Shown: positions 7,955-37,526 of the stretch, in pieces | Layout of the letters: every line of letters begins with the position of its first letter | How positions within the stretch are numbered: position 1 is the stretch's first letter | Assembly: GCA_030431615.1 (NCBI GenBank) | Contig: JAUIID010000018.1 | Span: 1-42,589 of the forward strand | DNA from: Alphaproteobacteria bacterium | GTDB taxonomy: Bacteria > Pseudomonadota > Alphaproteobacteria > Geminicoccales > Geminicoccaceae | Length of the DNA stretch: 42,589 nucleotides | Reading direction: 5' to 3' | The notes under the pieces: generated by a model | The model's database searches: none | What the model saw: the letters and a program-made list of their open reading frames with translations, nothing else | What the model was told of the DNA's origin: nothing | Position numbers and translations under genes: made by a program

Positions 7955-8023
7955 GACGCCAACGAGTTTGAGTGGGAAACGACCCTGCACGGACCGGTCC
8001 TCGGCCTCGCCATCGCATTCTGA
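7955..8023 (+). pseudogene. 3'-terminal fragment of a second outer-membrane barrel gene
   Basis: In frame with the TGA at 8021-8023, this fragment encodes GDANEFEWETTLHGPVLG followed by LAIAF. It is almost the same as the last residues of the intact barrel protein ending at 5049 (GDNEFEWDMTLHGPVLG then LAIAF). At DNA level the last ~58 nt differ at about four positions, plus one inserted codon; two of the differences are synonymous (TTC/TTT, GCG/GCA). The first six bases after the stop codon begin alike (CGCA). Similarity stops upstream of 7955. I infer a tandem paralogue whose body was replaced by the inserted block 5.05-7.95 kb. Confidence 0.8.
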
Positions 8024-8097
8024 CGCAGGCCGCGCCCGGCGCGATTGCGCGATGGCGCTCCGCCGCCTATGGCGGAGGCCAACCAGCCGGGTACACC

Positions 8098-9706: not shown

Positions 9707-9742
9707 GCGGTGGCCAACCGGCCAATCGCCCATCCGGACGAC

Positions 9743-9759
9743 TTGGCCCGCTCCTTGCT
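9743..9759 (+). promoter_or_regulatory. Sigma-54 (RpoN) promoter for urtABCDE
   Basis: TTGGCCCGCTCCTTGCT matches the RpoN consensus TTGGCACG-N4-TTGCT at every fixed position but one (A to C). The invariant GG (9745-9746) and GC (9757-9758) are exactly 10 bp apart. Transcription would start near 9770, leaving a ~30-nt leader before ATG 9800. Nitrogen control through NtrC and RpoN is well known for urea transport operons, so position and biology agree. The activator site is not defined. Confidence 0.75.
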
Positions 9760-9799
9760 GATGGCTGCACATAGCACGCACGCAACAAGGGGAACCCAC

Positions 9800-11098: not shown

Positions 11099-11131
11099 CC
11101 GACCCGGCAGCCCAATGGCGACGAGCGCGAC

Positions 11132-12739: not shown

Positions 12740-12746
12740 GCCGACC

Positions 12747-13964: not shown

Positions 13965-13971
13965 GCAGCAG

Positions 13972-14742
13972 ATGACCAGACCAGCCCCCCGACCCGGCAA
14001 CGCCAGCGACTCGATCCTCTATCTCGACGGCGTCACCGTCAGCTTCGACGGCTTTCGGGCACTCAACGCGCTGAGCCTGCTGATCGCCCCAGGCGAGCTG
14101 CGCGCCATCATCGGCCCCAACGGGGCCGGCAAGACCACGATGATGGACGTCATCACCGGCAAGACCAAGCCGGACACGGGCGAGATCTTCTTCGAGGGTG
14201 CCATCGACCTCAAGGCGCACGACGAGGCGGCCATCGCCCAGCTCGGCATCGGCCGCAAGTTCCAGAAGCCCACGGTCTTCGAGAACCACACCGTGCGCGA
14301 CAATCTCGAGCTGGCTTTGGCCGGCAAGCGCGGCCCCTTCGCCACGCTCTTCCATCGCCTGAGTGCTGAGGACGCCGATCGGATCGACCAGCTGCTCGGC
14401 ATCATCGGCCTCGCGAAGAGCGCCGAAAGCCCGGCCGGCGGGCTCAGCCACGGCCAGAAGCAATGGCTCGAGATCGGCATGCTGCTGGCCCAGGAGCCGA
14501 AGCTGCTGCTGGTCGACGAACCGGCCGCCGGCATGACCGACGCCGAGACCGCCGCCACCTCCGAGCTCCTCAAGGCCATCGCCCGCGACCATTCCGTGGT
14601 CGTCGTCGAGCACGACATGGCCTTCGTCCGCGACCTCGACTGCCGGGTGACCGTGTTGCACGAGGGCTCGGTCCTCGCCGAAGGCACGCTGGACCAGGTC
14701 TCGGCCGAGCCACGCGTCGTCGAAGTCTATCTGGGCCGATAG
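13972..14742 (+). CDS. urtD: Urea ABC transporter ATPase UrtD
   Basis: This 256-aa LivG-type ATP-binding subunit contains Walker A GPNGAGKTT, the Q-loop region GRKFQKPTVFENHTVRDNLE, a variant signature LSHGQKQWLEIGMLL (LSHGQ instead of LSGGQ, usual in UrtD), Walker B LLLVDEPAAGM and the switch His in VVVVEHDM. It powers uptake with UrtE. ATG 13972 lies 7 bp after urtC; another ATG overlapping the urtC stop (13961) is out of frame. Four bases separate it from urtE. Confidence 0.95.
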   Translation: MTRPAPRPGNASDSILYLDGVTVSFDGFRALNALSLLIAPGELRAIIGPNGAGKTTMMDVITGKTKPDTGEIFFEGAIDLKAHDEAAIAQLGIGRKFQKPTVFENHTVRDNLELALAGKRGPFATLFHRLSAEDADRIDQLLGIIGLAKSAESPAGGLSHGQKQWLEIGMLLAQEPKLLLVDEPAAGMTDAETAATSELLKAIARDHSVVVVEHDMAFVRDLDCRVTVLHEGSVLAEGTLDQVSAEPRVVEVYLGR

Positions 14743-14746
14743 CGCC

Positions 14747-15442
14747 ATGCTCGAAGTCAAGAAGATCGACCTCCACTACGGCGCCGCCCAGGCGCTGCGC
14801 GGCGTCTCGCTCAATGTCGAGATCGGCCAGATCACCTGCCTCATGGGCAGGAACGGCGTCGGCAAGACCTCGACGCTGCGCGCCATCGTCGGCCAACAGG
14901 CGATCAGCGCCGGCGAGATCCGCTGGCAGAAGGAACGCATCGATCGCCTGCGCCCCTACGACCGGACCAGGCGGAACATCGCCTACGTGCCCCAGGGCCG
15001 CGAGGTCTTCCCGCTGCTGACGGTCGAGGAGAACCTCCAGACCGGCTTCGCCCCCCTGCCCCGCGCCATGCGGCACATCCCGGACGAGATCTTCACTCTC
15101 TTCCCGGTGCTGAAATCCATGCTCGGCCGCCGCGGCGGCGACCTCTCCGGCGGCCAGCAGCAGCAGCTCGCCATCGCCCGCGCCCTCGTCACCCGCCCCC
15201 AGCTCCTCATCCTCGACGAGCCAACCGAAGGCATCCAGCCCTCGATCATCAAGGACATCGAGCGCGTCATCGCCCACCTCCGCGACCAAGGCACCATGGC
15301 GATCCTGCTGGTCGAGCAATATTTCGAGTTCGCCCAGCGCCTCGCCGACCGCTTCACCGTCCTCGACCGCGGCGAGGTCATCCTCGACGGCCACCCCGAC
15401 GAGTTCGAGGAAGCCGACGTCAGGCGGCATCTGACGATCTGA
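14747..15442 (+). CDS. urtE: Urea ABC transporter ATPase UrtE
   Basis: This 231-aa LivF-type ATPase contains Walker A GRNGVGKTS, YVPQGREVFPLLTVEENL, signature LSGGQQQQLAIARAL, Walker B LLILDEPTEGIQPSII and switch His region ILLVEQYFEFA (Gln replaces His, as usual in LivF/UrtE). It is the last gene of the operon. A short palindrome follows its stop. No urease subunit or accessory gene follows, though urt operons often sit beside ureases. Confidence 0.95.
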   Translation: MLEVKKIDLHYGAAQALRGVSLNVEIGQITCLMGRNGVGKTSTLRAIVGQQAISAGEIRWQKERIDRLRPYDRTRRNIAYVPQGREVFPLLTVEENLQTGFAPLPRAMRHIPDEIFTLFPVLKSMLGRRGGDLSGGQQQQLAIARALVTRPQLLILDEPTEGIQPSIIKDIERVIAHLRDQGTMAILLVEQYFEFAQRLADRFTVLDRGEVILDGHPDEFEEADVRRHLTI

Positions 15443-19657: not shown

Positions 19658-22600
19658 TCAGTGAAAGTTCCGCCCCTTGGGCATGGCGTCCCGGGGATCC
19701 GGCACCGCCCGCTTGAACTCGTCGGCGGGGCTCATGGCGCGATCGAGGGATTCCGTGAAGGCCGCCGGATCGGTGCTGTCTTGGGTCAGGACGTGGAGCT
19801 CGGGCGTGAGGTCGGTGAGCCGGTCGGCGACGAGGTGGATGACCCGGCCCTCGCGCTGCAGCCGGCCGCTCGCCTCGAGCAAGCGGGTGCGCATGACGAT
19901 CGGCCGGTAGCGCTCGAAGACCTTTGGCCAGACGATGATGTTGGCGAAGCCCGTCTCGTCCTCGAGCGTGGCGAAGATGACGCCCTTCGCACTGCCCGGG
20001 CGCTGGCGGACGATGACGAGGCCGGCGATGGCGATACGGCGACCGGGCGGGATCGACCAGAGGTCGCGGGCCGTCGCCAGCCGGCGCGGCCGGAGGTGGT
20101 CGCGCAGGAGCGCCATCGGGTGCGCCTTCAAGGACAGACGGAGGGTCGTGTAGTCCTCGATGACATGCTCGCCGAGGCCCATCTCCGGCAGCTCGGCCCA
20201 GGGCTCGTCGGCATGCTCCAGGGGCGCCAGGTTGGAGCCCGGGAAGCCAGCGCCGTCTTCCGCGGCAGCAAAGAGCGGCAGCTCGCCGTCCGGCAGCGCC
20301 TGCACCGCCCAGAGCGCCTGGCGGCGGTCCATGGCCATGGAGCGGAAGGCGTCGGCCTCGGCCAGGCGGACCAGCGTGGCGTGGTCGAGCCCGGCCCGGC
20401 GCTGCAGCTCGGCCGGGCTGCTGTAGGGCTTGAGCCGGGCGGTGACGAGCCGCAGGGCGGCCGCCTCGCCAAGGCCCTTGATCTGGCGGAACCCGAGCCG
20501 GACGGCGGTCTTCAAGGGCCCGCGCCGGCGGGCCAGCGGCTCCAGCGTGCTGTCCCAGAAGCTCCGGTTGACGTCGACCGGCCGGATCTCGACCCCATGG
20601 TCGACGGCATCGCGCACCAGCTGTGCGGGGGCGTAGAAGCCCATCGGCTGGCTGTTGAGGATGGCCGCACAGAAGACGTCCGGGTAGTGGCACTTGAGCC
20701 AGGCCGAGACGTAGACGAGCAGCGCGAAGCTGGCGGCATGGCTCTCGGGAAAGCCGTAATAGCCGAAGCCCTCGATCTGCCTGAAGCAGCGCTCGGCGAA
20801 GTCGGCGGCGTAGCCTCTGGCGGTCATGCCCTCGATCAGCTTGGCCTGGTAGCGATCGAGCTGGCCGCGCCGCTTGAAGGTCGCCATGGCCCGCCTCAAG
20901 CCGTCGGCTTCCGATGGCGTGAAGCCGGCGGCGACGATGGCGATCCGCATCGCCTGCTCCTGGAAGAGCGGCACCCCCATGGTCCGGCCCAGGACCGCCT
21001 CGAGCTCGGCCGAGGGGAACTCGACCGGCTCCCTGCCCTCGCGCCGGCGGAGATAGGGGTGGACCATGTCGCCCTGGATGGGCCCCGGCCGGACGATCGC
21101 CACCTCGATGACGAGATCGTAGAAGCTGCGCGGCTTGAGCCTCGGCAGCATCGACATCTGCGCCCGCGATTCGACCTGGAAGACGCCTACCGAATCGGCG
21201 TCCTGCAGCATCTCGTAGACGGCGGGGTCCTCCGGTGGCACGGCAGGCAGGTCGATCCTGATGCCATAGGACTGGCGCAGGAGGTCGAAGGCCTTCCTGA
21301 TGCAGGTCAGCATGCCGAGCGCGAGCACATCGATCTTGAGCATGCCGAGGGCGTCGATGTCGTCCTTGTCCCATTCGATCACGGTGCGGTTTGCCATGGC
21401 GGCGTTCTCGATCGGCACGAGGTCCGAGAGCGGGCTCCTCGCGATGACGAAGCCGCCCACATGCTGCGAGAGGTGCCGGGGCGTGTCGATCAGCTCCTCG
21501 GCGAGCCGCATGGTCCGCCGGATCAGGGGATCCTTCGGATCGAGCCCGGCCTCGCTCACATAGTCGAGCCGGAGCCCGTCCCGGCCATAGCCCCAGACCG
21601 ATTTCGAGAGCGCGTCCAGGACATCGGCCGAGAGCCCCATGACCTTGCCGACCTCGCGCATCGCACTCTTCGCCCGGTAGCGGATGACGGTCGCGGTCAG
21701 CGCCGCGTGGTCGCGGCCATAGCGCTCGTAGATGTGCTGGATCACCTCCTCGCGGCGCTCGTGCTCGAAATCGACGTCGATGTCGGGCGGCTCGTTGCGC
21801 TCGGCCGAGATGAAGCGCTCGAAGAGGAGATCGATCCGGGCCGGGTCGACCGCGGTGATGCCGAGGACGAAGCAGACGGCCGAGTTCGCTGCCGAGCCCC
21901 GGCCCTGGCAAAGGATAGCGCGCGAGCGGGCGAAGCTGACGATCTCGTGGACGGTGAGGAAGTAGGGCGCATAGGCGAGCTCGGCGATCAGCGCCAGCTC
22001 ATGGGCCAGGATGCGCCGGATCTTCTCGGGCACCGGGTCGCCATAGCAGTCGACAGCCCCCTCCCAGGTCAGGCGCTCGAGCTCCTGCTGCGGGGTGCGG
22101 CCGTCATAGCTCTCCTCGACCGGGTAGTCGTAGGCCAGCTCGTCCATGGAGAAGGTGCAGCGCCGCATGATCTCGAGGCCGCCGGCCAGCGCCTCGGGCC
22201 AGTCGGCGAAGAGCCGGGCCATCTCGGCCGCGGGCTTGAGGTGCCGCTCGGCATTGGCGAAGAGCCGGCCGCCGGCCGCGGCGATGGTGCAGTGCTCGCG
22301 GATGCAGGTGACGACGTCCTGGAGCGGGCGCCGCCCCGGCACGTGATAGTGCACGTCGTTGGTGGCGAGCAGGCGCACGCCGGCGGCCCGGGCCATGGAA
22401 GCGAGGCCGGTGAGGCGGTCCCAGTCGCCGCCGTCGAGGCGGTGCGTGGCGACGAGGTAGAGCCGGTCGCCCCAGCGCCCGGCCAGCGTCCCGAGCATGG
22501 CGGGATCGGGATCGATGATGGCGAAGACCTGGCCCTCGTCATGCGCCATGACGTCGGCGAGGTGGAGCAGGCAGCTGCCCTTGGCCGCCCGCCGCCGGCC

Positions 22601-22885
22601 GAGCGTCAGCAGCCGCGATAGGCGGCTGTAGGCCGGCCTGTCCATGGGCCAGGCGAGCAGCGACGGGCCGTCCACGAGGTCGAGCCGCACGCCCGGCAGG
22701 AAGCGCAGGCCCAGCTCCTTCGCCTTGACATGCGCCCGCACCAGCCCGGCGAAGCTGTTGCGGTCGGTGACGGCAAGGGCGGCGAGCCCCAGCTCGCGGG
22801 CCCGCTCCACCAGCTCCTCCGGATGCGAGGCACCCCTGAGAAAGCAGAAATTGCTGGTCACCTGCAGCTCAGCGTAGGCGGTCAA
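19658..22885 (-). CDS. dnaE2: Error-prone DNA polymerase III alpha subunit DnaE2
   Basis: This 1075-aa C-family polymerase performs damage-induced translesion synthesis with ImuA and ImuB. The N-terminal PHP domain (YAELQVTSNFCFLRGASHPE) is typical of DnaE2. CQGRGSAANSAVCFVLG is the polymerase motif, PDIDVDFEHERR carries catalytic Asp residues, and QHVGGFVIARSPLSDLVPIE, GVFQVESRAQMSML and an OB fold near the end (IAIAGLVIVRQRPGSAKG) complete the family order. I place the start at TTG 22885, just before the conserved core; an ATG at 23023 would add 46 unrelated residues and overlap imuB. The gap to imuB is 46 bp. It is the third gene of the SOS cassette. Confidence 0.93.
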   Translation of the reverse strand: MTAYAELQVTSNFCFLRGASHPEELVERARELGLAALAVTDRNSFAGLVRAHVKAKELGLRFLPGVRLDLVDGPSLLAWPMDRPAYSRLSRLLTLGRRRAAKGSCLLHLADVMAHDEGQVFAIIDPDPAMLGTLAGRWGDRLYLVATHRLDGGDWDRLTGLASMARAAGVRLLATNDVHYHVPGRRPLQDVVTCIREHCTIAAAGGRLFANAERHLKPAAEMARLFADWPEALAGGLEIMRRCTFSMDELAYDYPVEESYDGRTPQQELERLTWEGAVDCYGDPVPEKIRRILAHELALIAELAYAPYFLTVHEIVSFARSRAILCQGRGSAANSAVCFVLGITAVDPARIDLLFERFISAERNEPPDIDVDFEHERREEVIQHIYERYGRDHAALTATVIRYRAKSAMREVGKVMGLSADVLDALSKSVWGYGRDGLRLDYVSEAGLDPKDPLIRRTMRLAEELIDTPRHLSQHVGGFVIARSPLSDLVPIENAAMANRTVIEWDKDDIDALGMLKIDVLALGMLTCIRKAFDLLRQSYGIRIDLPAVPPEDPAVYEMLQDADSVGVFQVESRAQMSMLPRLKPRSFYDLVIEVAIVRPGPIQGDMVHPYLRRREGREPVEFPSAELEAVLGRTMGVPLFQEQAMRIAIVAAGFTPSEADGLRRAMATFKRRGQLDRYQAKLIEGMTARGYAADFAERCFRQIEGFGYYGFPESHAASFALLVYVSAWLKCHYPDVFCAAILNSQPMGFYAPAQLVRDAVDHGVEIRPVDVNRSFWDSTLEPLARRRGPLKTAVRLGFRQIKGLGEAAALRLVTARLKPYSSPAELQRRAGLDHATLVRLAEADAFRSMAMDRRQALWAVQALPDGELPLFAAAEDGAGFPGSNLAPLEHADEPWAELPEMGLGEHVIEDYTTLRLSLKAHPMALLRDHLRPRRLATARDLWSIPPGRRIAIAGLVIVRQRPGSAKGVIFATLEDETGFANIIVWPKVFERYRPIVMRTRLLEASGRLQREGRVIHLVADRLTDLTPELHVLTQDSTDPAAFTESLDRAMSPADEFKRAVPDPRDAMPKGRNFH

Positions 22886-22931
22886 GGGCGGGACGCCGCG
22901 GCTGAAGGGGCTGGTCGCCCGTGCCCGCGCC

Positions 22932-24473
22932 TCATCCGAACGTCCCGTGCAGGTGCCAGGTCGGCGGCTCGGCCTCGTCGTAGCGGCCTTCGCGATAGAG
23001 CCAGAGATCCCCTCCCCCGGCATCGGTCACCCGGTAGTAGTCGCGCGGGCGGGGGGTCGGGCGATCGGTGCGCCACCATTCGGGCTCGAGACGTTCGGGA
23101 CCGCTGGCGCAGCGGACCGGCTCGCTCCGGCCGCGGCGACGCAGCAGGAGCGGCGGGCCGTCGGGCACCGGGGCCATGGCCTCGATCGGCGCCGGGCGAT
23201 CGAGCAGCCGCAGGGGACGGGGCTGTCCGGCGAGCCAGGCATTGCTGGCGCCCGGCTCGGCGCCGGCCGCATCGGCGACGCTCTGGGCATGCTCCGGCCA
23301 GTGGCTCGCCGCCGGCACCAGCCGGCGGACGGCGGCCGGGCCGAGCCGCGCCTGCAGCTGGTCGACCAGCCGCGCCAGCTCGGCGGCGTCCTGGTCCTGC
23401 GCCAGGTCGACCTGCCGGGCAGCCAGGGGTGCTGCCTCGGTCACCTCGAGCCGCATGCTCTCGATGCCGAAGCCGATGTCGAGCCCGTCGAGCTGCAGCT
23501 CGAAGAGCTTGAGGAGATGCGCCGTGTCACGGCTGGGGCGGCCGGTGCGAACGGTGAGCCGGGCGAGCTCGCCATCGACCCGGAAGAGCAGGAGCTCGAG
23601 CCGGCGCGCCCCGGCCACCGCCCGCTCGAGCTCGCGACCGAGCCGCTGGAGCAGGTCGAGCACGGCAGCACGGATGTCCTCGGTCCGGCCGATCGGCTCG
23701 ACCCAGGCGAGCCCGGCGGCATGGCGGGGCGGCTCGCGCAAGGGGGTAAAGGGTGCTTCCGTCACGCCCATCAGCCGGTCGAGGGCGAGCACCGGCGCCC
23801 GGCCGAAGCGCCGCACGAGGGCCCGCTGCGGCAGTGTGCGGAGCTGGCCGACCCGGCGCAGGCCGAGCCGGACGAGGGTGGTCGTGGTCGCCGGCCCGAG
23901 ACGGAGCGCCTGGACCGGCAGGCGGGCGAGCGCCGCCTTCGCCGCCTCGCCCCTGAGCACGCCCCCGCCCCCGTGGCGCGCCCAGGCCCAGGCCGCCATG
24001 GCACCGTCGGCCACCGCCAGGCGATGGCCGAGGCCCAGCCGGTCGAGCCGGCGGGCGATGCGGTCGAGCAGCCCTTGCTCGCCGCCGAAGAGATGGGCCG
24101 AGCCGGTGATGTCGAGGAGGAGTGCCGCCGTCTCGCGCTCCGCTTCTCCATCGGGGCCGTCGTCGAGGGCGACGTTCGGGGTATAGCAGAGGCAGGCGGC
24201 GGCCAGGCTCTCGAGCTGCCGGCGGTCCGCCAGAGGGGCAGCCGGGGCCAGCGCCAGATCGGGCAGAATCGCCCGGGCATCGGCGAGGCGCAGGCCGGGG
24301 ACGAGGCCGGCCGTGGCGGCCGCGGCATCGACCGCGGTCAGGACCTGACCGCGGGCACCCGGCGCATGGAGTGCGAAGGGCTCGGGCAGCCGCTCACCCC
24401 GCCGCGCGGCGGTGCTGCGCAGCCGGTCGATCGGCAGGTTCACGAGCTGCAGCGAAAGACAGCGTCTTCTCAT
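22932..24473 (-). CDS. imuB: ImuB, inactive Y-family polymerase homologue
   Basis: The 513-aa protein starts at ATG 24473 (MRRRCLSLQLVNLPIDRLR). Y-family polymerases carry catalytic acids at this place; here they are missing, as known for ImuB, which acts as a beta-clamp adaptor for DnaE2. LTAVDAAAATAGLVPGLRLADARA, LLDITGSAHLFGGEQGLLD and RFGRAPVLALDRLMG are typical. It overlaps imuA by 80 nt (24394-24473), which is long, but the conserved N-terminus supports the start. Confidence 0.92.
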   Translation of the reverse strand: MRRRCLSLQLVNLPIDRLRSTAARRGERLPEPFALHAPGARGQVLTAVDAAAATAGLVPGLRLADARAILPDLALAPAAPLADRRQLESLAAACLCYTPNVALDDGPDGEAERETAALLLDITGSAHLFGGEQGLLDRIARRLDRLGLGHRLAVADGAMAAWAWARHGGGGVLRGEAAKAALARLPVQALRLGPATTTTLVRLGLRRVGQLRTLPQRALVRRFGRAPVLALDRLMGVTEAPFTPLREPPRHAAGLAWVEPIGRTEDIRAAVLDLLQRLGRELERAVAGARRLELLLFRVDGELARLTVRTGRPSRDTAHLLKLFELQLDGLDIGFGIESMRLEVTEAAPLAARQVDLAQDQDAAELARLVDQLQARLGPAAVRRLVPAASHWPEHAQSVADAAGAEPGASNAWLAGQPRPLRLLDRPAPIEAMAPVPDGPPLLLRRRGRSEPVRCASGPERLEPEWWRTDRPTPRPRDYYRVTDAGGGDLWLYREGRYDEAEPPTWHLHGTFG

Positions 24474-25107
24474 CCCATTGCACCACCCAGCTTGCCGGCA
24501 CACCGCCCTTGACCCGCCACAAGTCGAGCAGCCAGAGGCGGGCGCCGGGATCGTCGCCAAGGAAGGGCGCCGCCCGCCAGCGGGTCACCGCGGCCGAGGG
24601 GGTGGCATCGGCCCGGCCGAAGCGCAGCAGCAGCCCGGCGGCACCGCCCGCCTCGGCGGCGAGCTGCAGGCGCCGGCCGGCGAGCAGGTCGAGCCCTTCG
24701 ATCTCGGCCACGACGCAGGCCACGGCCGGCGAGCGCAGTGCCTCGTGGGCCGCCCAGAGGACCTCGCCTGCCCGGCGGCAGCGGACCAGGACCAGCCGTG
24801 CCGGGTCGATGCCGAAGCGGGCGAGCCCGGGGCCGTAGAGCGCGCCCTGCCGGGCGGTGAGCGCCGCATCCGCGCACCAGACGAGGGTTCCGGCAGCGCG
24901 CAGGAAGCGGCCGGCAAGGGCTGCCGCCAGGCCACTGGCGAGGCTGCCGCCAATCTCGTGCAAGGTGGCCCGGGGCAGTCCGCCCCAAGGCAGATGCGCG
25001 TCGATGGCGTCGCCGAGGCTTGCCCGGACGGCGCCGAACCGCGCCCCGCTGCCATCGAGGCTGCGGATGCGCGCCCGCAGGGCGGCGAGAGTCGAAGCGT
25101 CGGCCAT
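24394..25107 (-). CDS. imuA: ImuA, SOS mutagenesis protein (RecA-like fold)
   Basis: The 237-aa protein starts at ATG 25107, 19 bp from a LexA box. HLPWGGLPRATLHEIGG and TLVWCADAALTARQGALYGPGLARFGIDPARLVLV match the RecA/SulA-like ImuA family, which recruits ImuB and DnaE2 to damaged forks. LLRFGRADATPSAAVTRWRAAP is the conserved C-terminal part. The last ~27 residues lie in the 80-nt overlap with imuB. First gene of the operon imuA-imuB-dnaE2. Confidence 0.9.
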   Translation of the reverse strand: MADASTLAALRARIRSLDGSGARFGAVRASLGDAIDAHLPWGGLPRATLHEIGGSLASGLAAALAGRFLRAAGTLVWCADAALTARQGALYGPGLARFGIDPARLVLVRCRRAGEVLWAAHEALRSPAVACVVAEIEGLDLLAGRRLQLAAEAGGAAGLLLRFGRADATPSAAVTRWRAAPFLGDDPGARLWLLDLWRVKGGVPASWVVQWDEKTLSFAAAREPADRPAAQHRRAAG

Positions 25108-25125
25108 GAACGGTTCCGGACAAAT

Positions 25126-25140
25126 GTTCTCATTATGTTC
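25126..25140 (-). promoter_or_regulatory. LexA operator (SOS box) of imuA-imuB-dnaE2
   Basis: GTTC (25126-25129), seven bases (TCATTAT) and GTTC (25137-25140) form an exact GTTC-N7-GTTC direct repeat, the LexA site of alphaproteobacteria. It lies 19-33 bp upstream of the imuA start in an unusually AT-rich patch that probably contains the promoter, so LexA would block transcription until DNA damage. Confidence 0.88.
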
Positions 25141-25239
25141 TATTTTCAGACAGGCCCCCGGGTCAAGCCGCCATGCCGGCACCCGCCCTCCGCAGGCGCC
25201 GGCGGCCCCGCACCGCCAGCCCCTCCCCACCGACCTGCA

Positions 25240-25259
25240 ATGTCCGCAAACCGTGTTGG
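25240..25259 (+). repeat. Left terminal inverted repeat
   Basis: ATGTCCGCAAACCGTGTTGG is the inverse complement of 26163-26182 with one mismatch (C at 25244). A looser CTGC lies just outside on both sides. This is the left end of the IS1595-like element. Confidence 0.8.
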
Positions 25260-25326
25260 CCTTAACCAGGCATCAACCCGCCGGCCGCATCATGCGAGCC
25301 CTGTTTCGCGCCGCGGGGCACCCCAC

Positions 25327-26295
25327 ATGCCGAACGCCAGAGACCACCTGCCACCCGGTTCCGGCACGCCCGGGAACTGCCCGTATTGCAGCGGCCCCGA
25401 TCTCGCCCGATGGGGCCGGGCCCACAACGGTCACGCCAGATGGCGCTGTGGCGGCTGCCGGCGCACCTCGTCGACGACCACCGGCACGTTCGCGGCCGGC
25501 ATCCACGCGCCCGACAAGCTCCTGCACGTCATCGCCGACATGGCCGGCGACCGACCGTCATCCTGCCGCCGCCTCGCCGCCCGGCTGGGCCTCGACAAGA
25601 CGACCGTCTGGCGCTGGCGGCAGAAGATCATCGGCACGCTCGTCCGCCCCAAGGCCCCGGAGCCCGACGATAACGGGCCGGCCGAGGCCCTCCGCATCCG
25701 GGAATCACGCAAGGGCTCGAGAGAATGGCTCCGGCATCGCCTCCAGCCCCGGACCGTCCCCGCGCCTGACCGCCCCCGCTGGGTCGATGTCGATCGCCGC
25801 GCCCTGCCCCTTCCCCATCCGTTCGCCACCTACCGGGGCACCGTCTACATCCGCGTCGGACATGACCTCAGCTGCCGCGTGACAGTGATCCCGGCCCTTC
25901 GCGGATCACCGCCAGCACCGCTGCCCGATCAGCCGACCAATGCAGGCCGACCGGACAGCGGGCCGCTCCCCTGGTCCGCAGCAACGCCCCCGCAGCCACC
26001 GCATGACCCGCCCCAGGGCGCTGACCTCGCCCGGTTCATCCGCCCCTTCCGTGGCCCCGCGGCACGCTATCTCGCCGGCTATGCCGCCTGGTTCGCGGCA
26101 TGGCTCGACCGGTCGATGCCGGCCCTGCTCGCCACCCTCGCCCCATTGCCCGACCACCGCCACCAACACGGTTTGCAGACATGCGCAGACCTGATCGAAC
26201 GAGGCCGCCGAAACCCGCACCCGCCGCCCCACCACCCGCCGCTCACCCCGGCGCTCGCCAGTTCCAGCGCTGCCATACCCACCGCCCCACCATGA
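25327..26295 (+). CDS. IS1595-family transposase-like protein with degraded catalytic core
   Basis: The 322-aa protein begins at ATG 25327. A zinc ribbon (CPYCSG…CGGC, about residues 19-41) leads into TTTGTFAAGIHAPDKLLHV and a helix-turn-helix (SCRRLAARLGLDKTTVWRW). RESRKGSREWLRHR and PRWVDVDRRALPLPH match the region that follows the first catalytic Asp in ISSod11-type transposases, but the position where Asp-Glu is expected reads ALRIRES. After VIPALRG a Pro-rich stretch of about 45 residues replaces the part that should carry the second catalytic residue, and FIRPFRGPAARYLAGYAAW restores family similarity near the end. The frame passes the right inverted repeat and overlaps the convergent permease gene by 53 bp. 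It is either a decaying transposase kept open by GC bias or a domesticated DNA-binding protein. Confidence 0.65.
   Translation: MPNARDHLPPGSGTPGNCPYCSGPDLARWGRAHNGHARWRCGGCRRTSSTTTGTFAAGIHAPDKLLHVIADMAGDRPSSCRRLAARLGLDKTTVWRWRQKIIGTLVRPKAPEPDDNGPAEALRIRESRKGSREWLRHRLQPRTVPAPDRPRWVDVDRRALPLPHPFATYRGTVYIRVGHDLSCRVTVIPALRGSPPAPLPDQPTNAGRPDSGPLPWSAATPPQPPHDPPQGADLARFIRPFRGPAARYLAGYAAWFAAWLDRSMPALLATLAPLPDHRHQHGLQTCADLIERGRRNPHPPPHHPPLTPALASSSAAIPTAPP
26163..26182 (-). repeat. Right terminal inverted repeat
   Basis: CCAACACGGTTTGCAGACAT pairs with the left end at 25240-25259 at 19 of 20 positions. It lies within the open frame of the transposase-like gene, which is unusual, since IS transposase genes normally stop before or in the end repeat. 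Confidence 0.8.
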
Positions 26296-27229
26296 CGGCG
26301 ATCAGAAACACCCCCCAAAGTGCCGTCGCCAGATGCTGGTGGGCGCCCATCAGATTGAGCCCGGAGGCGATGGTCTGGAGGATCACGAGGGCGAGCACCA
26401 CGGCCGCCGTCCGCCCGAACCCGCCGAAGGGGTCGACGCCGCCGAGAAAGCAGGCGAGCACGGTGATGAGCAGGTAGGCCTCACCGTGGCCGACCCGGAC
26501 CGAATTGAAGCGGGTCAGCATGAGGATGCCGGCGACCGCACTCATGACGCCCGACAGCACGTAGACCAGCACCAGCACCCGCCGCGTGTCGATGCCGGAA
26601 TAGCGCGTCGCCTCGAGATTGGAGCCGGCCATGTAGGTCGAGAAGCCGAAGCGCGAGCGGCCGAGCAGCACCTGCCAGAGGACCGCCGCCACGAGCAGGA
26701 TCAGGAGCGGCAACGGGATGCCGAGAACCGTGCCGTGCCCGATCGTGGCGATGAAGGGCGGAAAGCCGGAGATGTCGCCGCCCCGGGTCAGGAACTCGCC
26801 GAGCCCGCGCAGGAAGATCATCATCGCCAGCGAGACGAGGATCGGATGCGCGCCGACGAAGGCCACGACCACACCCATCACCCCGCCGGCGAGTGCACCG
26901 ACGACGAGCGCCGCCACCGTGCCGAGCAGCACCACCAGCAGCCCCGCCTCGGGCCCGCCGCCGAGCTGGATGATCCAGGCCATGGCGAGCCCGGCGATGT
27001 TGGCGGTGAAGGTGATCGCGAGATTGAGCCCGCCCGAGAGGATCGGCAGCAGCATGGCCAGCGTGAGGAGACCGAGCTCCGGCAGCTGGAAGGCGATCGA
27101 CTGGAAGGTGCCGGCGGCGAGGAAGCGGGGCGTCGTCAGGCCGAAGAAGACGAGCACCACGGCGAAGAAGACGAGCAGCCCGAGGATATCGCCCTGGCCG
27201 CGCAGGATCCGGGTGAAGGCGGCCTGCAT
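26243..27229 (-). CDS. ABC sugar-type permease (RbsC/LsrD-like)
   Basis: This 328-aa membrane protein has about nine to ten hydrophobic helices (BPD_transp_2 family, CUT2 importers). LPELGLLTLAMLLPILSGGL and ITFTANIAGLAMAWII form the usual N-terminal pair, and GSNLEATRYSGIDTRRVLVLVYVLSG is the typical cytoplasmic loop that meets the ATPase. ATG 27229 overlaps the stop of the other permease by one base (TGATG), so translation is coupled. Its 3' end overlaps the convergent transposase-like gene. The two permeases of the operon differ, so the channel is a heterodimer, as in LsrCD. Confidence 0.9.
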   Translation of the reverse strand: MQAAFTRILRGQGDILGLLVFFAVVLVFFGLTTPRFLAAGTFQSIAFQLPELGLLTLAMLLPILSGGLNLAITFTANIAGLAMAWIIQLGGGPEAGLLVVLLGTVAALVVGALAGGVMGVVVAFVGAHPILVSLAMMIFLRGLGEFLTRGGDISGFPPFIATIGHGTVLGIPLPLLILLVAAVLWQVLLGRSRFGFSTYMAGSNLEATRYSGIDTRRVLVLVYVLSGVMSAVAGILMLTRFNSVRVGHGEAYLLITVLACFLGGVDPFGGFGRTAAVVLALVILQTIASGLNLMGAHQHLATALWGVFLIAVMVGRWVWQRWNWRAPG

Positions 27230-28272
27230 CAGCCCTTGCCTCCCGTCTGGCCCCGGCGCGGGCGGGCAAAGCGCCGAAGGAACGCCTCGAGCCCCTCCAG
27301 ATTGCTCATCGTGATGGCAACGAGAATGACGAGGCCGACGACCATCTGGAAGGCATAGGGGCTCACCCCCATGAGGTTCAGCCCGTTCTGGGTCATGGTG
27401 ACGAGCGTCACGCCGAGCAGTGCGCCCAGGATCGTCCCCCGCCCGCCACCGAGCCGCGCACCGCCCAGCACCACGGCCGCCAGCACATCGAGCTCGCGCC
27501 CGTAGAGCGCGTTCGGCACCACCTCCTGGACGTAATGCGCCTGCATCAGCCCGCCGATCCCGGCACAGACGCCGAGCCAGCCATAGGCGAGGAAATGCAT
27601 CGCGGCGATGTTGATGCCGACCCGCCGCGCGCCCTCCGCATTGTCGCCCATGGCGTAGAGCTGGCGGCCGAGGCTCGAGCGGTTGAGAAAGAGCCAGGTG
27701 GCGGCGACGACCGCCACCATGACCACCACCGGCAGCGTCAGGAACGCGAAATCTCCCCCCGGCGTCTCGAACTCGAAGACGATGATCCGGTCCAGGAGCC
27801 AGTCCGGCAGGTCGTAGATCGACCGGCCGCGCGTGAAGAACATCAAGAGACCGAAGAAGATGTTGAAGGTGGCGATGGTCACCACGATCGAGATGATCCG
27901 GAAATAATAGATCAGTGAGGCGTTGATCGCCCCGAGCATGAAGCCGAAGGCGCTGGCCAGCAGCAGCCCGATGGCCCAGTTGCCGCCACCGAGCTGCATG
28001 ACCGTCACCGCGGTCAGGTACTGGACGACGGAGGCGGCGACCGCGAACGAGATGTCGATGCCGCCGGCCACCAGCACGACGAGGAGGCCGACCGCCATGA
28101 TGGCGTTGAAGGCGCTGATGTTCAGAAGATCGAAGATGTTGGCGAAGGTCAGGAACGTGTCGGTGGCGAGGCCGAGAAAGGCGCCGAAGACGAGGATGAC
28201 GACCACGAGCCATCCCTCGGTCGAGCGCGGCAGCCAGCGGCGCCCGGCGCCGTGCGGGTGTGGCTCAGGCAT
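27229..28272 (-). CDS. ABC sugar-type permease (RbsC/LsrC-like)
   Basis: This 347-aa CUT2 permease starts at ATG 28272, 8 bp inside the end of the ATPase gene. AFNAIMAVGLLVVLVAGGIDISFA is the conserved substrate-path segment, LYAMGDNAEGARRVGI the ATPase-contact loop, and VLGGARLGGGRGTILGALLGV the conserved C-terminal helix pair. It partners with the second permease just downstream. The frame upstream to 28365 overlaps the ATPase and lacks membrane character. Confidence 0.9.
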   Translation of the reverse strand: MPEPHPHGAGRRWLPRSTEGWLVVVILVFGAFLGLATDTFLTFANIFDLLNISAFNAIMAVGLLVVLVAGGIDISFAVAASVVQYLTAVTVMQLGGGNWAIGLLLASAFGFMLGAINASLIYYFRIISIVVTIATFNIFFGLLMFFTRGRSIYDLPDWLLDRIIVFEFETPGGDFAFLTLPVVVMVAVVAATWLFLNRSSLGRQLYAMGDNAEGARRVGINIAAMHFLAYGWLGVCAGIGGLMQAHYVQEVVPNALYGRELDVLAAVVLGGARLGGGRGTILGALLGVTLVTMTQNGLNLMGVSPYAFQMVVGLVILVAITMSNLEGLEAFLRRFARPRRGQTGGKG

Positions 28273-30799: not shown

Positions 30800-30983
30800 T
30801 TCAGCCTCCCTGTTTTATGACGGCTGGTCATGCGCGGCCAACCGCGTGATCATTGTTAGCGTACCCCCGCAAATCCTCAAGTGGCTCGCCAGCGACATGC
30901 GGCGATTGCCGGCGCGCCCGCTGACAATTTGCGCTGGTCTGCCGACTGGCCTAACCTTGGGAGTCTGACGGAGGAACGTCGCA

Positions 30984-32843
30984 ATGCAGCGGGTGCTGAG
31001 CGCAATCCTCGCACTCGATATCGTCGACTACAGCCTGCACATGGGCCACGACGACGAGGCGACGCTGGCCGAGCTGAAACGTCTGTTCGACAGGGTCGTG
31101 GAAATCGTCGGCCGCCATGACGGTCGCGTCTTCGGCGAGGCCGGGGACGGCATGCTGGTCGCGTTCGCGAGCCCGGTGCAGGCGCTGCGCTCGGCACTCG
31201 AGATCCGCGCCCAGGTGAACGCGCCGCTCGAAGCCACCGAACAGCTGCATATCCGCCAGGCGCTCTCGCTCGGCGACGTCATCGTGGACGGCGACCAACT
31301 CTACGGCGACGCCGTCAACATCGCCGCCCGGCTGCAGAGCCTCGCCGAGCCGGGCGGGATCGTCGCCTGTGGCGCCTTTCACGAGCAGGTCCGGCGTCAC
31401 GTCGCCGCCGACTTCCGCTCGCTCGGCCGACGCCGGTTGAAGAACATCGACATGCCGGTCGAGGTGTTCCGGCTCGCCACCGGCCCGCCGGCGAACGGGC
31501 GCCGGCGGCGCCTGGCCATGGCGCTGACGGCGCTGGTCGCCCTGGTCCTCGTCACCGCGATCGCGACATACCGGATGCAGGCGGACACCGGCGCCGAAAG
31601 CCAGGTCGGCCACCTGGCGGCACTGGCACCGTTGCGCGAGCGCGGCCCGGCAATCGCCGTCACGCCTTTCGAGGGGCTGGGTGACGATGCGCGCTTCCGC
31701 GTGCTCGCTGACGGCATCGTCGAGGACATCACCACCGATCTATCGAAGATCCAGCAGCTCCAGGTGGTCGCCCGCAACACGACACGGGCCGTGGCCCGGG
31801 AGAACATCGGGCCCAGGGCGATCGCCAGCTCGCTCGGCACCAGCCACGTGCTGGAGGGCACGATCCGCGCCGTCGGCGACAAGTTCCGCATCAACGCCAG
31901 GCTGGTGGACGGCAGTGACGGCCGGACCGTCTGGGGCGAGCGCTACGACGTCAGCCGGCATGACATTTTCAGCGTCCAGAAGGACATCGTCGACGGCGTC
32001 GTGGCCGCCATGGCGCTCAACCTGAGCTCGGACGAGCGGCGCCGCATCGCCCGCCGCGACACGACCAACCTCGCCGCCTACGAGAACTTCCGCAGCGGCA
32101 TCCAGCTGCTCGGGGAAAAGACGCCCGAGGCGCTGGCCGAAGCACTCGTCCACCTGCAGGCGGCGATCGCGATCGATCCCGACTATGCCGCGGCCAACGC
32201 CGCCATCGGCCAGGTCTACTGGTGGAGCTGGGTCTATGGCTGGGAAGACAGCGTCGGCGAAACCTGGGAGACGGCACCGGGCCGGGCGGAGGAGTACCTG
32301 CAGCGGGCGCTGCTCGAGCCCAACGCCGTCGCCTACCGGCTGGCCGCCGACATGAACCTCTATGCACGGCGCTTCGACGAGGCGCTCGGCTTCGCCCAGC
32401 TCGCGGTGGAGCACGATCCGAACGACGTCGCCGGCCACATCATCCGCGCCGAGACGCTGATCTATGCCGGGCGCCCGACCGAAGGCCGGCCCTGGGTCGA
32501 GCTGGCCATGCGACTCGACCCGCTCTTCCCGGCCTATGTCGATTTCGTGCTCGGCATGTCCTATTTCGGCGAGGGCGCCTTCGAGGAAGCGGCAGCGCAG
32601 TTCGAGCTGGCGCTCCAGCGCAACCCCGAGGACTTCGGCCCGGCGGCACCGCTCGCCGCAGCGCTCGTTCATCTCGGCCGGCTCGACGCGGCCAAAATCG
32701 CCTTCGACACCTATGTCGCCGGCTGGCCGGAGGCGAATCTCGACGAGCTCGTCGACTATTGGCCCTTCCAGCACCTGGAGGACGAGGAGCGGCTTACCGG
32801 TCCCCTGCGCCAGCTCGGCCTGCCGCAATCGCCGCCGGCATGA
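30984..32843 (+). CDS. Class III adenylate/guanylate cyclase with TolB-like and TPR region
   Basis: The 619-aa protein has its cyclase domain at residues 1-165. Metal-binding Asp12 (LALDIVDYS) and Asp55 (EAGDGMLVAF) are present, and YGDAVNIAARL supplies Asn112 and Arg116 for transition-state binding. The Lys commonly two or three residues before the GDG turn is replaced (FGEAGDG), so base preference is uncertain. A membrane helix at about 177-195 follows. A domain then starts AIAVTPFEGLGDDARFRVLADGI with LEGTIRAVGDKFRINARLVD, the TolB-like module common in alphaproteobacterial cyclases, and TPR repeats run to about 600. GAGGA precedes ATG 30984. Its stop overlaps the next start in ATGA. It probably makes cAMP or cGMP in response to a signal sensed by the TolB/TPR part, which would lie across the membrane from the cyclase. 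Confidence 0.88.
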   Translation: MQRVLSAILALDIVDYSLHMGHDDEATLAELKRLFDRVVEIVGRHDGRVFGEAGDGMLVAFASPVQALRSALEIRAQVNAPLEATEQLHIRQALSLGDVIVDGDQLYGDAVNIAARLQSLAEPGGIVACGAFHEQVRRHVAADFRSLGRRRLKNIDMPVEVFRLATGPPANGRRRRLAMALTALVALVLVTAIATYRMQADTGAESQVGHLAALAPLRERGPAIAVTPFEGLGDDARFRVLADGIVEDITTDLSKIQQLQVVARNTTRAVARENIGPRAIASSLGTSHVLEGTIRAVGDKFRINARLVDGSDGRTVWGERYDVSRHDIFSVQKDIVDGVVAAMALNLSSDERRRIARRDTTNLAAYENFRSGIQLLGEKTPEALAEALVHLQAAIAIDPDYAAANAAIGQVYWWSWVYGWEDSVGETWETAPGRAEEYLQRALLEPNAVAYRLAADMNLYARRFDEALGFAQLAVEHDPNDVAGHIIRAETLIYAGRPTEGRPWVELAMRLDPLFPAYVDFVLGMSYFGEGAFEEAAAQFELALQRNPEDFGPAAPLAAALVHLGRLDAAKIAFDTYVAGWPEANLDELVDYWPFQHLEDEERLTGPLRQLGLPQSPPA

Positions 32844-33595
32844 GCGACCCGCCGCTGCTGGCGGCTGCCCGTGCCGCCTGTGACGCCCTGCCGCTCTATC
32901 GCGCGCTCTGGTCCCGCCGGCCGACAGTCGAAGCCGACATTCCCTACATCGGCGCCGCCGATCTGCACTGCCTCGACGGTCCAGGCCAGCTCCATGTCGC
33001 CGGTGCCGACCCGGTCGGTGCGGTGCCACCTTTGCGCCGTGGCAGGCCACACCTGGGGTTCACCCGCATCGAGGCCGACGGCGACTGGCTGCTGCGCCAG
33101 CGCCGGCTGATCGGCGCCCTGTCCCGGCTCGGCTCGACGCGGTTGCCGCGCCGGATGGCACTGGTCACGGACGACGCGACAGGGCCCTTCGCCGCCGATC
33201 TCGTCGAGCTGCTCGCCTGGAGCCGGGTCAGCGCCTCCCTCGTCTATGCCGAAGCCGGGCCACGCAGCATCGACCGCGGCATCGAAGCCCTCGCCCCGGA
33301 TCTCGTGCTCCTGGTGGCCGGCGTCGAACGCCCGGCAATCGATGTGCCGCTCGTGATGGTCGTGCATGCCGGCGACCGACCAGCTGCCGCCACGCAAACG
33401 GCACGCCTCCTCGTCTGTGACGAGCTGCAGGTCCTGGCCAGCGCCGGCGCCGGCGAGACCACCTACATTCCGGCCGACGACAGCGTGCGGCTCGAGATCG
33501 ACCCCCGAACCGGGCTGCTCGCCGTGACGAGCCTCGCCTTCACGGCGGCACCGGTGATCCGGCTGCAGGTCGGCCCGGGCGTGGCCCTGGCATGA
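32840..33595 (+). CDS. Unknown protein, apparent pseudo-adenylating (PaaK-like) paralogue
   Basis: The 251-aa protein is coupled to the cyclase (ATGA, 32840-32843) and to the next gene (ATGA, 33592-33595). It has no family motif at first sight. Beside the next protein, the order of features agrees: LPLYRALWSRRPT with IPYIGAADLH matches its SPFYRARLAE with LPPTSRADYR, and near the end LEIDPRTGLLAVTSLAFTAAP followed by VIRLQVG matches its GELLLSTPDIRTQPVLNYRTG. The ATP-gripping Ser/Gly loop and the whole C-terminal lid domain are absent. I infer a truncated, catalytically dead homologue that may serve as a subunit or regulator of the active enzyme. This is inference from eye alignment and could be wrong. 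Confidence 0.55.
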   Translation: MSDPPLLAAARAACDALPLYRALWSRRPTVEADIPYIGAADLHCLDGPGQLHVAGADPVGAVPPLRRGRPHLGFTRIEADGDWLLRQRRLIGALSRLGSTRLPRRMALVTDDATGPFAADLVELLAWSRVSASLVYAEAGPRSIDRGIEALAPDLVLLVAGVERPAIDVPLVMVVHAGDRPAAATQTARLLVCDELQVLASAGAGETTYIPADDSVRLEIDPRTGLLAVTSLAFTAAPVIRLQVGPGVALA

Positions 33596-34899
33596 GCAGC
33601 GACAACCTGCCGGCCAAGAGGACAGGTGCGTTCGTCGCCGGCGATCGCGGCCACATGACGGTCATTGACCGTGACGGGCGAACCGAGGCCCGGCTCCGGC
33701 AGTTCCTCGACCGGCTGGATGCCGAATCACCCTTCTATCGGGCGCGGCTCGCCGAATGCGGCACCGGCACCGCCATCGAGCGGCTCGGCCGCCTGCCCCC
33801 GACCTCGCGCGCCGACTATCGGGGCCCGCTCGCGGCGGAGGCGCTGGCCGGCCTCGGCCGGGAATGCTTCGTCACCGATCGCAGCTCCGGCTCGACGTCG
33901 CGGCCCGTGCTGCGCTTCTGCCGCGGGGCCGACGACCTCGCCGAGCAGGCCGAGACCGAGCGGGTCTTCCGTCGTGCCGGGCTCGGGCCGGGCGACCATC
34001 TGGTCTGCATCGATGTCGGGGCTGCCGCGATCTCTGACTTCTACCAGCGGGCGGCCCGGGCGCTCGGCGTCGAACGCTTCACGTTCCTGCATCTGACCGA
34101 GGATGACGCGCCCGCCTGGCTGGCGCTGCAGCGGCTCGAACCCACTGCCGTGCTCGCCATTCCGAGCCTGATCGCACGCGGCGGCGAACGGCCGTTGGCA
34201 CTCTGGCCCGAGGGTCGCTCGCCGGTACGGATCTGCATCACGGTTGGCGAGCTGCTTCTTCCCCGCCAGCGCACGGCGATCGCGCATGCCTGGGGCTGCA
34301 GGGTTTGCACCTTCTTCGGCACGACCGAGACCGGCGGCTTCGCCAGCGAGTGCGGCACGGCCGACGGCTGCCACTTCCACCCCGAGAGCACGGTGGTCGG
34401 TCTTGCCGATCCGGCATGGGTCGATCCGCTGACGGCCGAGGGCGAGCTCCTGCTGAGCACACCCGACATCCGCACCCAGCCCGTGCTCAACTATCGTACC
34501 GGCGACCGGGTCCGCGTCTCGGTCGGCGCCTGTACGTGCGGCGAGCGGACGCCCCGACTCTGGCCGCTCGGCCGAGACACGGAGACCTTCGTCTTCGCCG
34601 GCGAGAAGTTCACCTACGACGCGTTCCTCGAAGCCCTGCGCGTCGTGGCACCGACGCTGGACGCATGCTCGATCCTGGTCGGCCCGACGACGCAGCGCCC
34701 CGTCCGCCTCACGTTCCACCTGCCGGAGAAGCTGCGCCGGCACGAGAAGGCGCTACGCGCGGCGCTGACCAACGGCATCTTCGAGCTCGACGCGCTCTGC
34801 CGCTACGGCATGGTCGAGGTGCAGCTCGCTTTCAGGGGCCGGCTGCCCCTGGGCAATCGCAAGGGCATCCGCCTCGCGAGGGCTAGGACAGAGCGTTGA
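33592..34899 (+). CDS. PaaK/LuxE-like AMP-forming adenylating enzyme
   Basis: The 435-aa protein belongs to the phenylacetate-CoA ligase-like group of adenylating enzymes. SPFYRARLAECG and LPPTSRADYRG form the N-terminus. SSGSTSRP (98-105) is the phosphate-binding loop, FFGTTETGGFASECG the adenine-binding motif (TTE), and YRTGDRVRV holds the ribose-binding Asp. GRDTETFVFAGEKFTYDAFLEAL opens the C-terminal domain, which ends with GNRKGIR, a possible site of the catalytic Lys. CxCG in GACTCGERTP may bind zinc, as in some PaaK relatives. It should activate a carboxylic acid as acyl-AMP; the acid and acceptor (CoA or protein) are unknown. No phenylacetate pathway genes are nearby. Its end overlaps the convergent small gene by 17 bp. 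Confidence 0.8.
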   Translation: MSSDNLPAKRTGAFVAGDRGHMTVIDRDGRTEARLRQFLDRLDAESPFYRARLAECGTGTAIERLGRLPPTSRADYRGPLAAEALAGLGRECFVTDRSSGSTSRPVLRFCRGADDLAEQAETERVFRRAGLGPGDHLVCIDVGAAAISDFYQRAARALGVERFTFLHLTEDDAPAWLALQRLEPTAVLAIPSLIARGGERPLALWPEGRSPVRICITVGELLLPRQRTAIAHAWGCRVCTFFGTTETGGFASECGTADGCHFHPESTVVGLADPAWVDPLTAEGELLLSTPDIRTQPVLNYRTGDRVRVSVGACTCGERTPRLWPLGRDTETFVFAGEKFTYDAFLEALRVVAPTLDACSILVGPTTQRPVRLTFHLPEKLRRHEKALRAALTNGIFELDALCRYGMVEVQLAFRGRLPLGNRKGIRLARARTER

Positions 34900-35329
34900 G
34901 AATCGATCGCGAGCCCCCGGCTTCCGTGCGGAAGTCGTCGTCATAGCTCTTCAGGGCCGCCTGAAGCGTCGCCCGACCCGGGTGACGACCGGCGAGGTTC
35001 CCGACCTCGCGGCGCAGCAGCCGCACGAGCCTCAGCTCCTCGTCGGCCGCCTCCCTGACCGATGCCACATCGCCGGCCTGCAGGTCCGCGAGGCACTGTC
35101 CGGTCGCCTCTCGATCCCCTTTCAACGGGGACAGCCAATAGCGGTCAATAAAGTCGCGCACTGGCCCTGAATTGCCCTTGGCCGCCTGCTCGGCCACCGC
35201 AACCAGATCGTTCAACAGGGATTGCTCCGCCGTCAGCGCCTTCACCACATCGCCGACACCGACCAGCTGCACCGTCTCTTCATCCCCGGCATCAGCAGGA
35301 CCGACTCCGCCGCCTGCGGTCGCGTTCAT
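34883..35329 (-). CDS. Small unknown protein (148 aa)
   Basis: ATG 35329 follows the strong binding site GGAGGAAA. After a Gly/Ala-rich, probably disordered start, the chain is predicted by eye to be mostly helical: VQLVGVGDVVKALTAEQSLL, FIDRYWLSPLKGD, and EADDEL-like acidic/Arg-rich stretches (ADEELRLVRLLRREVGNL). There is no signal peptide, membrane helix or catalytic motif. I do not recognise a family. It converges on the PaaK-like gene with a 17-bp overlap, so the two may influence one another's expression. Confidence 0.6.
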   Translation of the reverse strand: MNATAGGGVGPADAGDEETVQLVGVGDVVKALTAEQSLLNDLVAVAEQAAKGNSGPVRDFIDRYWLSPLKGDREATGQCLADLQAGDVASVREAADEELRLVRLLRREVGNLAGRHPGRATLQAALKSYDDDFRTEAGGSRSILNALS

Positions 35330-36437: not shown

Positions 36438-37526
36438 CTATTGACGCCGTGCTGCCACAGGCGGCAGCCGGGCCGGATCGAAGGGGCTGAGATCAATATT
36501 GGCCGAAGTACCGTCGAGGATCAGTGCGGACAGCGCCTCGCCGGTGGCCGGCCCGTTCAGCATGCCCCAGACGCTGTGACCTGTCGCGACAAATGTGCGC
36601 TGGAGCCCGGGCACCGGGCCGATCAGCGGCAGGCCGTCCTCGGTCACCGGCCGGAAGCAGGCGCCGCCGCGCCGCACCGGGGCGTCGGCGAGCCCGGGCG
36701 CGAAGCCCTCGATCATCAGCCGCAACTGCTCGAGGAAGCGCTCGTCCGCCACCACCGCTGCCGGATCCTCGGGCATGGGCCGTCGGCTCGGCAGGCCGCA
36801 GACATAGGTTGTGCCGTCCGGCCGCGGGATGACCTCGGGCGCCCCCTGCCCGCCGCCCGGCGCCGGGCAGTCGACGAAGAGGGCGGCCGCCGCGGCCCCC
36901 GGGTCGTCGAAGACGAGGCTGTGCCCCTCGAGCCCGTAGACCGCCGGCAGCGCCAGCCAGGCCGCCGCCAGGACCGACCAGGGCCCCATGGCGATGACCA
37001 CCGCATCGGCGGCCAGCACCTCGCCATCGACCACCACGCCAGTGGCCCGCCCGCCATCGGCGCTCCGCTCGATCCCCTGGACGACACCCCCGACCAGCCG
37101 GGCGCCGCGCTCGCCGGCGAGGTCCATCATGCCGGTGGTGAAGGCCTCGGGATCGACCTGCGCCGTCGTCTCCTCCGTGCCGAGCCAGCCGCCGAAGCGG
37201 GCCTCCGGCGCCAGCCAGCCCGGCAGGCCGGCCGCCGCCCGCCCGGCCTGCCGGCTCAGCGTCACGGCCGCCGTCGGCAGGCGCCGATAGCCCCAGCGAT
37301 CGGGGAAGGCCGCCGCCAGCTCCGCGTGCAGCGCAAAGCTGCGCCGCGCCAGCGGCCGCAGCGGCGAGCCATCGCACCAGTCGAGCGCCAGGAACCCGCC
37401 CGACTTGCCGGAGGCCGACCCGGCCACCCGATGCCGCTCCACCACCAGAACCTCGCAGCCCCGCGATGCCAGAAACCAGGCCGTGCAGGCGCCGATCACC
37501 CCGCCGCCGCAGATCACCACCCGCAT
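36438..37526 (-). CDS. FAD-dependent amino-acid/amine oxidase (DAO family)
   Basis: The 362-aa protein starts with the dinucleotide-binding fold VVICGGGVIGACTAWFLASRG (GxGxxG variant GGGVIG) and ends with LPLIGPVPGLQRTFVATGHSVWGM, the C-terminal FAD motif of the DAO family. GKSGGFLALDWC resembles the subgroup related to yeast TDA3/FOXRED1-like oxidoreductases. It should oxidise an amine or amino acid; the substrate is unknown. The proline-peptidase-like neighbour makes Pro or a related imino acid a reasonable guess. Confidence 0.85.
   Translation of the reverse strand: MRVVICGGGVIGACTAWFLASRGCEVLVVERHRVAGSASGKSGGFLALDWCDGSPLRPLARRSFALHAELAAAFPDRWGYRRLPTAAVTLSRQAGRAAAGLPGWLAPEARFGGWLGTEETTAQVDPEAFTTGMMDLAGERGARLVGGVVQGIERSADGGRATGVVVDGEVLAADAVVIAMGPWSVLAAAWLALPAVYGLEGHSLVFDDPGAAAAALFVDCPAPGGGQGAPEVIPRPDGTTYVCGLPSRRPMPEDPAAVVADERFLEQLRLMIEGFAPGLADAPVRRGGACFRPVTEDGLPLIGPVPGLQRTFVATGHSVWGMLNGPATGEALSALILDGTSANIDLSPFDPARLPPVAARRQ

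Follow-up and report, generated by a model that had tools for sequence, protein, structure and literature searches.

A rare conserved pair of PaaK-like proteins, one predicted to be active and one degenerate, encoded behind a putative membrane cyclase in an alphaproteobacterium

A two-gene unit, in which a predicted active PaaK-like adenylate-forming enzyme is encoded together with a degenerate, apparently dead relative, was found in a stretch of 42,589 nucleotides (the window) from a bacterium of the family Geminicoccaceae. Acid activation by PaaK-family enzymes serves catabolism and the synthesis of natural products. Judging from the sequence comparisons, the pair is the conserved element of this locus, is rare and is not an accident, and its main features are the conserved pairing itself, a conserved gene overlap, the degenerate sequence of the partner and a distinct subfamily for the enzyme. 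We give an even chance to the reading in which the module consists of the active enzyme and a PaaK-type relative that is truncated, catalytically dead and translated together with it, the latter serving as the second protomer of the dimer.

In the window the pair was preceded by the gene of a predicted membrane-anchored class III nucleotide cyclase with a TolB-like/FlgO region and TPRs (619 aa, 30984-32843, plus strand). The gene of the degenerate protein, here called the pseudo-adenylator (251 aa, 32840-33595, plus strand), came second and that of the adenylator third (435 aa, 33592-34899, plus strand), each joined to the gene before it by a 4-nt ATGA stop/start overlap (32840-32843 and 33592-33595, both plus strand). 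These coordinates and lengths, as well as the 17-bp overlap with a convergent orphan gene of 148 aa (34883-35329, minus strand), were all re-found as the sequence-only reading had given them. Minus-strand transporter genes lay to the left of the trio, the divergent intergenic region before it being 30800-30983, and minus-strand genes lay to the right, so the trio is a candidate stand-alone transcription unit. A Shine-Dalgarno sequence, GGAGG, was present in the intergenic region 5' of the cyclase start; none was found at the start of the 251-aa gene and only GTG at that of the adenylator. Since a Shine-Dalgarno sequence is missing at the second and third genes and both are joined by ATGA overlaps, it is suggested that the translation of each is coupled to that of the preceding gene. 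A fixed stoichiometry had earlier been read from the overlaps; the overlaps themselves were confirmed and, with the Shine-Dalgarno pattern, fit translational coupling, but they say nothing on stoichiometry. The 148-aa gene had no relative other than its own match in 289 genomes of the class; nothing connects it to the trio and it is probably outside the module.

The pathway of the adenylator pair was not indicated by its neighbours in the window. No phenylacetate, CoA-ester or luciferase pathway genes were present among the window ORFs run against Pfam (those of the trio, the 148-aa gene and 27 others), in agreement with the initial description of the surroundings. Window ORFs, 34 in all, had been picked by GC pattern; the scan did not extend to 14022-14687 (minus) and 24412-26292 (plus), to the antisense-looking 26333-27355 (plus) and 32759-33367 (minus), or to the unpicked ORF 26243-28213 (minus).

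Several other groups of genes were seen in the window. A solute-binding protein gene adjoined a sodium:dicarboxylate symporter gene (5277-7414, minus strand), both with a third-position GC of 0.71-0.72, below that of most window genes. A NicO nickel-transport gene was overlapped by a DUF1007 gene (7972-9656, plus strand), and a Peripla_BP_5 gene, two BPD_transp_2 permease genes and an ABC ATPase gene (9710-15439, plus strand) formed what presumably is a urea-type ABC transporter. A DNA polymerase III alpha-type gene (Pfam DNA_pol3_alpha), preceded by an unassigned ORF of 523 aa in the same orientation (19661-24503, minus strand), was taken by us to resemble an ImuB/DnaE2-type mutagenesis cassette. 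The tRNA-Gly that ARAGORN called at 37177-37261 (minus strand) is probably spurious; it falls within an ORF for an FAD oxidoreductase (36441-37526).

Evidence for the pair came from a genome of another class. At this locus, L028, both genes were found in the same order and with the same ATGA overlap (9165-9168), the identity with the window proteins being 28% for the partner and 43% for the adenylator. In a further locus, L029, the contig ended inside the adenylator and the upstream side was unreadable; a search of this third genome (G439, 80% complete) revealed no gene for the partner. Hence, two loci showed the pair and one more, at a contig end, showed the enzyme only. The sequence-only reading was prepared to regard the trio as accidental should the 251-aa and 435-aa proteins rarely adjoin each other or a cyclase: they adjoined each other at both of the two readable loci, and a cyclase stood beside them at one of the two, namely the window. 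An accidental arrangement without function, in which the 251-aa ORF is unrelated or in decay, would agree with the rarity of the pair, no relative of the protein having been found in its own order, own-class samples, plasmids, viral contigs or PDB (plasmids being searched for either 251-aa-type protein). We nevertheless regard this as highly improbable, since the open frame, the gene order and the overlap were kept across two classes at 28% identity, and the L028 locus largely refutes it.

The surroundings of the pair differed between genomes. Upstream of it in L028 were a minus-strand gene with a transposase-like HTH, a MARVEL-like membrane protein gene and a CHAD gene, with no cyclase, and downstream a HAD-IB phosphatase gene overlapped the adenylator by 8 nt (TIGR01490, E 6e-20; Pfam HAD, E 3e-18). 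The adenylator of L029 was followed by a lipoprotein-like gene and then by a convergent PAS-GGDEF gene. The overlapping HAD-IB gene, which hints at a lipid or envelope metabolite pathway, and the lipoprotein-like gene would be compatible with an explanation in which the partner acts in the pathway as a binding protein in its own right, for instance by presenting the acceptor or by keeping the acyl-AMP bound. A block of the partner with the core DDATGP, which we take not to be a known PaaK motif, would also suit such a protein. The downstream neighbours of L028 and L029 are, however, different from each other and neither adjoins the window trio, and we think this explanation unlikely.

The partner showed a remote similarity to PaaK-type enzymes. 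For the 251-aa protein neither Pfam nor NCBIfam gave a family above its cut-off. Its homologue in L028, a protein of 262 aa, was recovered by BLASTP at 92.8 bits and, because this homologue exists (93 bits), the 251-aa gene is considered to be protein-coding in spite of an ORF on the opposite strand whose GC pattern is similar. When a two-row profile of the partners was aligned by HHalign with 18 generic PaaK-like proteins, a score of 44.2 (E 2.6e-5) was reached over 234 collinear columns, and addition of both adenylators to the set gave 41.6 (E 6.3e-5). The controls remained far below: against the profile with the two adenylators, 100 column shuffles scored at most 21.0 and the reversed alignment 11.6, and against the generic profile 68 cyclase-segment decoys scored at most 20.4 and the reversed alignment 9.7 (shuffles and decoys were thus each run against one of the two profiles). 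Against a narrow three-row profile of the adenylator orthologues the match was weak (E 0.031, 24 columns only), so that the partner may stem from outside the adenylator's own subfamily.

Both copies of the partner ended at the YRTGD region, the Asp of which was replaced, and the SGTTG-like motif, the YGxTE motif and the whole C-terminal domain were absent from both. The full conserved block, LVxDDATGPxAxxL, and the length were kept between the two at 28% identity. On these alignments, the 251-aa protein is remotely related to PaaK-type enzymes and truncated, with no C-terminal domain and no ATP-site motifs that can be recognised. The name pseudo-adenylator that it had received at first sight was borne out by the HHalign score (44.2, with controls at most 21.0) and by the loss of these elements. 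Two genomes from the same family (G005 and G008) gave weak matches to it that were rejected: one fell in an ORF lying antisense to genes, and the second in an ORF of 48 codons, where a stop interrupts the matched part.

The adenylator, in turn, retained the usual motifs of a PaaK-like enzyme. PaaK-like enzymes carry a P-loop, a YGxTE motif, a YRTGD motif and a C-terminal Lys; in the 435-aa protein SSGSTSRP was found at 98, FGTTET at 242, NYRTGDR at 300 and GNRKGIR at 421, of which SSGST (P-loop-like), FGTTE, YRTGD and the C-terminal Lys were read by us as the adenylate-forming motifs. GTTE, Y301-R302, D305 and R423-K424 were invariant in the three-row alignment of the orthologues. The best PDB match of the three-row orthologue profile was 4r1l, a phenylacetate-CoA ligase (E 9e-21), with residues 26-366 covered, and seven further PDB sequences matched at E 1e-3 or better. 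This structure match and the run of motifs through to the C-terminal Lys favour the original assignment as a complete PaaK/LuxE-like acyl-AMP former, and the enzyme probably turns a carboxylic acid into acyl-AMP with ATP.

It fell below the cut-offs of three curated families. The best NCBIfam match, NF045666 (the DVU_1553 family), gave 97.1 bits (80.7 bits for an orthologue), below the curated cut-off of 300; NF053551 (flexirubin FlxY) gave 60 bits, below the cut-off of 520; and TIGR02155, the PaaK of phenylacetate catabolism, gave 18.3 bits against a cut-off of 646, with no paa genes among the ORFs scanned. Flexirubin genes were likewise absent among the window ORFs scanned by Pfam. In a tree of 24 rows the three adenylator orthologues formed one clade (support 100/100) with a stem length of 1.99, which indicates that the adenylator and its orthologues are a distinct new PaaK-like subfamily, as far as their sequences tell.

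Besides the window enzyme, two orthologues were detected in the 398 genomes of a phylum sample (344.7 and 271.0 bits); generic matches, none exceeding 62 bits, came from two more genomes of this sample. Both foreign orthologues fell in the class of genome G385, presumably magnetococcal (2 of 48 genomes), and the partner gene was present in one of these 48, the genome with the complete adenylator. Only the window's own enzyme was found in its order (31 genomes, with three generic matches of 73 bits or less), in a class sample of 289 genomes (13 of them matching generically at no more than 56 bits) and in an overlapping class sample of 385; in another class of the phylum, that of G331, sampled without a positive control, none was found in 185 genomes. 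Plasmids contained only generic PaaK relatives (identity of 34% or less) and phages five weak matches to the L028 adenylator (27% or less). Viral contigs contained no relative of the adenylator or the 251-aa protein, no closer relative of either was retrieved by an exact peptide-word search of genome contigs, and the defence-gene models gave nothing useful. A PaaK-like gene of the same family, at L019, was rejected as an orthologue; it adjoins polysaccharide pyruvyl-transferase-like and glycosyltransferase-like genes, named from reading the ORFs without a family search.

The cyclase was as first described with regard to its regions, although its catalytic domain was matched weakly (Pfam E 0.012, residues 8-134); the TolB-like/FlgO region was found at residues 222-343 (TIGR02800, E 2e-5), and TPRs were present as well. 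Residues D12, D55, D109, N112 and R116 were present, and Gly51 occupied a position at which 11 of 22 relatives have Lys. We presume that D12 and D55 bind metal, that N112 and R116 act on the transition state, that D109 lies on the adenine side and that Gly51 is at the position of the substrate-specifying Lys. Because of this Gly51, the product of the predicted cyclase is uncertain. The family was abundant, with 20 matched stretches, counted as 15 places, in its own genome and matches in 19 of 32 genomes. An extreme expansion, of 52 matched stretches, was seen in one genome of the class, G037 (L034, L052 and other contigs).

It had been proposed that cyclic-nucleotide signalling and acyl activation act in one pathway. 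Such a trio would be a single signalling system, in which the periplasmic TPR/TolB part senses a signal and the cyclase or its product controls the adenylator pair, which would acylate a protein or make a signal. The ATGA coupling of downstream genes lacking a Shine-Dalgarno sequence is in its favour, as is the fact that only the window cyclase had a stop overlapping an ORF of 100 aa or more on its own strand (such an ORF was seen at 0 of the 24 other distinct loci that could be assessed; of 30 loci, the window included, three ran off the contig end, one was a repeat and one had a short flank, and a GC-pattern filter was applied). This overlap lends mild support to a local functional link. However, L028, the only other pair locus with a readable upstream side, has no cyclase; neither pair gene occurred at 29 other cyclase loci (27 distinct, flanks of up to 1.5 kb); and, with 15 places for the family in this genome, a cyclase beside another operon is unremarkable. 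A single system is thus distinctly unlikely in our view. Of the earlier proposal the pair was supported, and the link to the cyclase was seen in one genome only; the cyclase is a local addition to the conserved module that may or may not matter.

For the preferred reading, the dead relative as second protomer, the following course can be envisaged. With ATP, the adenylator would convert a carboxylic acid, aromatic or fatty, into acyl-AMP. The partner would most likely replace the second protomer of the PaaK-family dimer and might thereby determine how the active enzyme is shaped, how stable it is or what its acceptor site is like, the acceptor of the acyl group possibly being CoA, a small molecule or a protein. 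In the window genome the module, placed behind the membrane cyclase in one operon, may be co-expressed under the same signal. The PaaK-family enzyme NatL2 forms a homodimer, and a lysine from one subunit reaches across to the phosphate held by the second (PMC7204872), which makes a dimer-partner role for a dead relative plausible. Single-sequence AlphaFold models of the proteins had pLDDT values of 34 and 32. More tentatively, and with less confidence than the dimer itself, the pair could be a pseudoenzyme-dependent complex whose dead protomer diverts acyl-AMP towards a special acceptor, be it a protein, a lipid or a signal, its output being tied to the membrane cyclase by translational coupling in the window genome.

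If true, an active/dead pair would show that a PaaK-family dimer can specialise into two different chains, and it would offer a simple two-protein system in which to ask what a dead subunit does for the fate of acyl-AMP. No dead or inactive partner of PaaK-type enzymes was described in the titles or abstract openings searched, a weak result with most subscription journals outside the scope; papers sought on this type of cyclase, or on PaaK in connection with cyclases or benzoxazoles, provided background only.

Compared with known systems, the adenylator resembles PaaK-type enzymes (phenylacetate-CoA ligase; PDB 4r1l, 2y4o and 2y27) in the match over residues 26-366 and the core motifs. It differs from them in its separate long-stemmed clade among the relatives compared, in having no phenylacetate genes nearby and in the degenerate relative encoded beside it. 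The DVU_1553 family and FlxY, its best NCBIfam matches, lie far below their cut-offs. Within the same class, class III cyclases that carry TolB-like and TPR regions are numerous as paralogues and share the architecture of the window cyclase, which differs in the Gly at the usual Lys position and in the translational overlap with the downstream gene. Among other adenylating enzymes, the NEDD8 E1 is a pair of active and dead paralogues; one active and one dead homologous chain are common to both cases, but the NEDD8 E1 belongs to another enzyme superfamily and is an analogy only. Finally, sequence matches to the adenylator were found in two PaaK-like ligases, NatL2 (which we take to be PDB 6siw) and AjiA1 (6wuq). 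NatL2 is a homodimer (PMC7204872), whereas the window locus instead co-encodes a degenerate relative of its enzyme.
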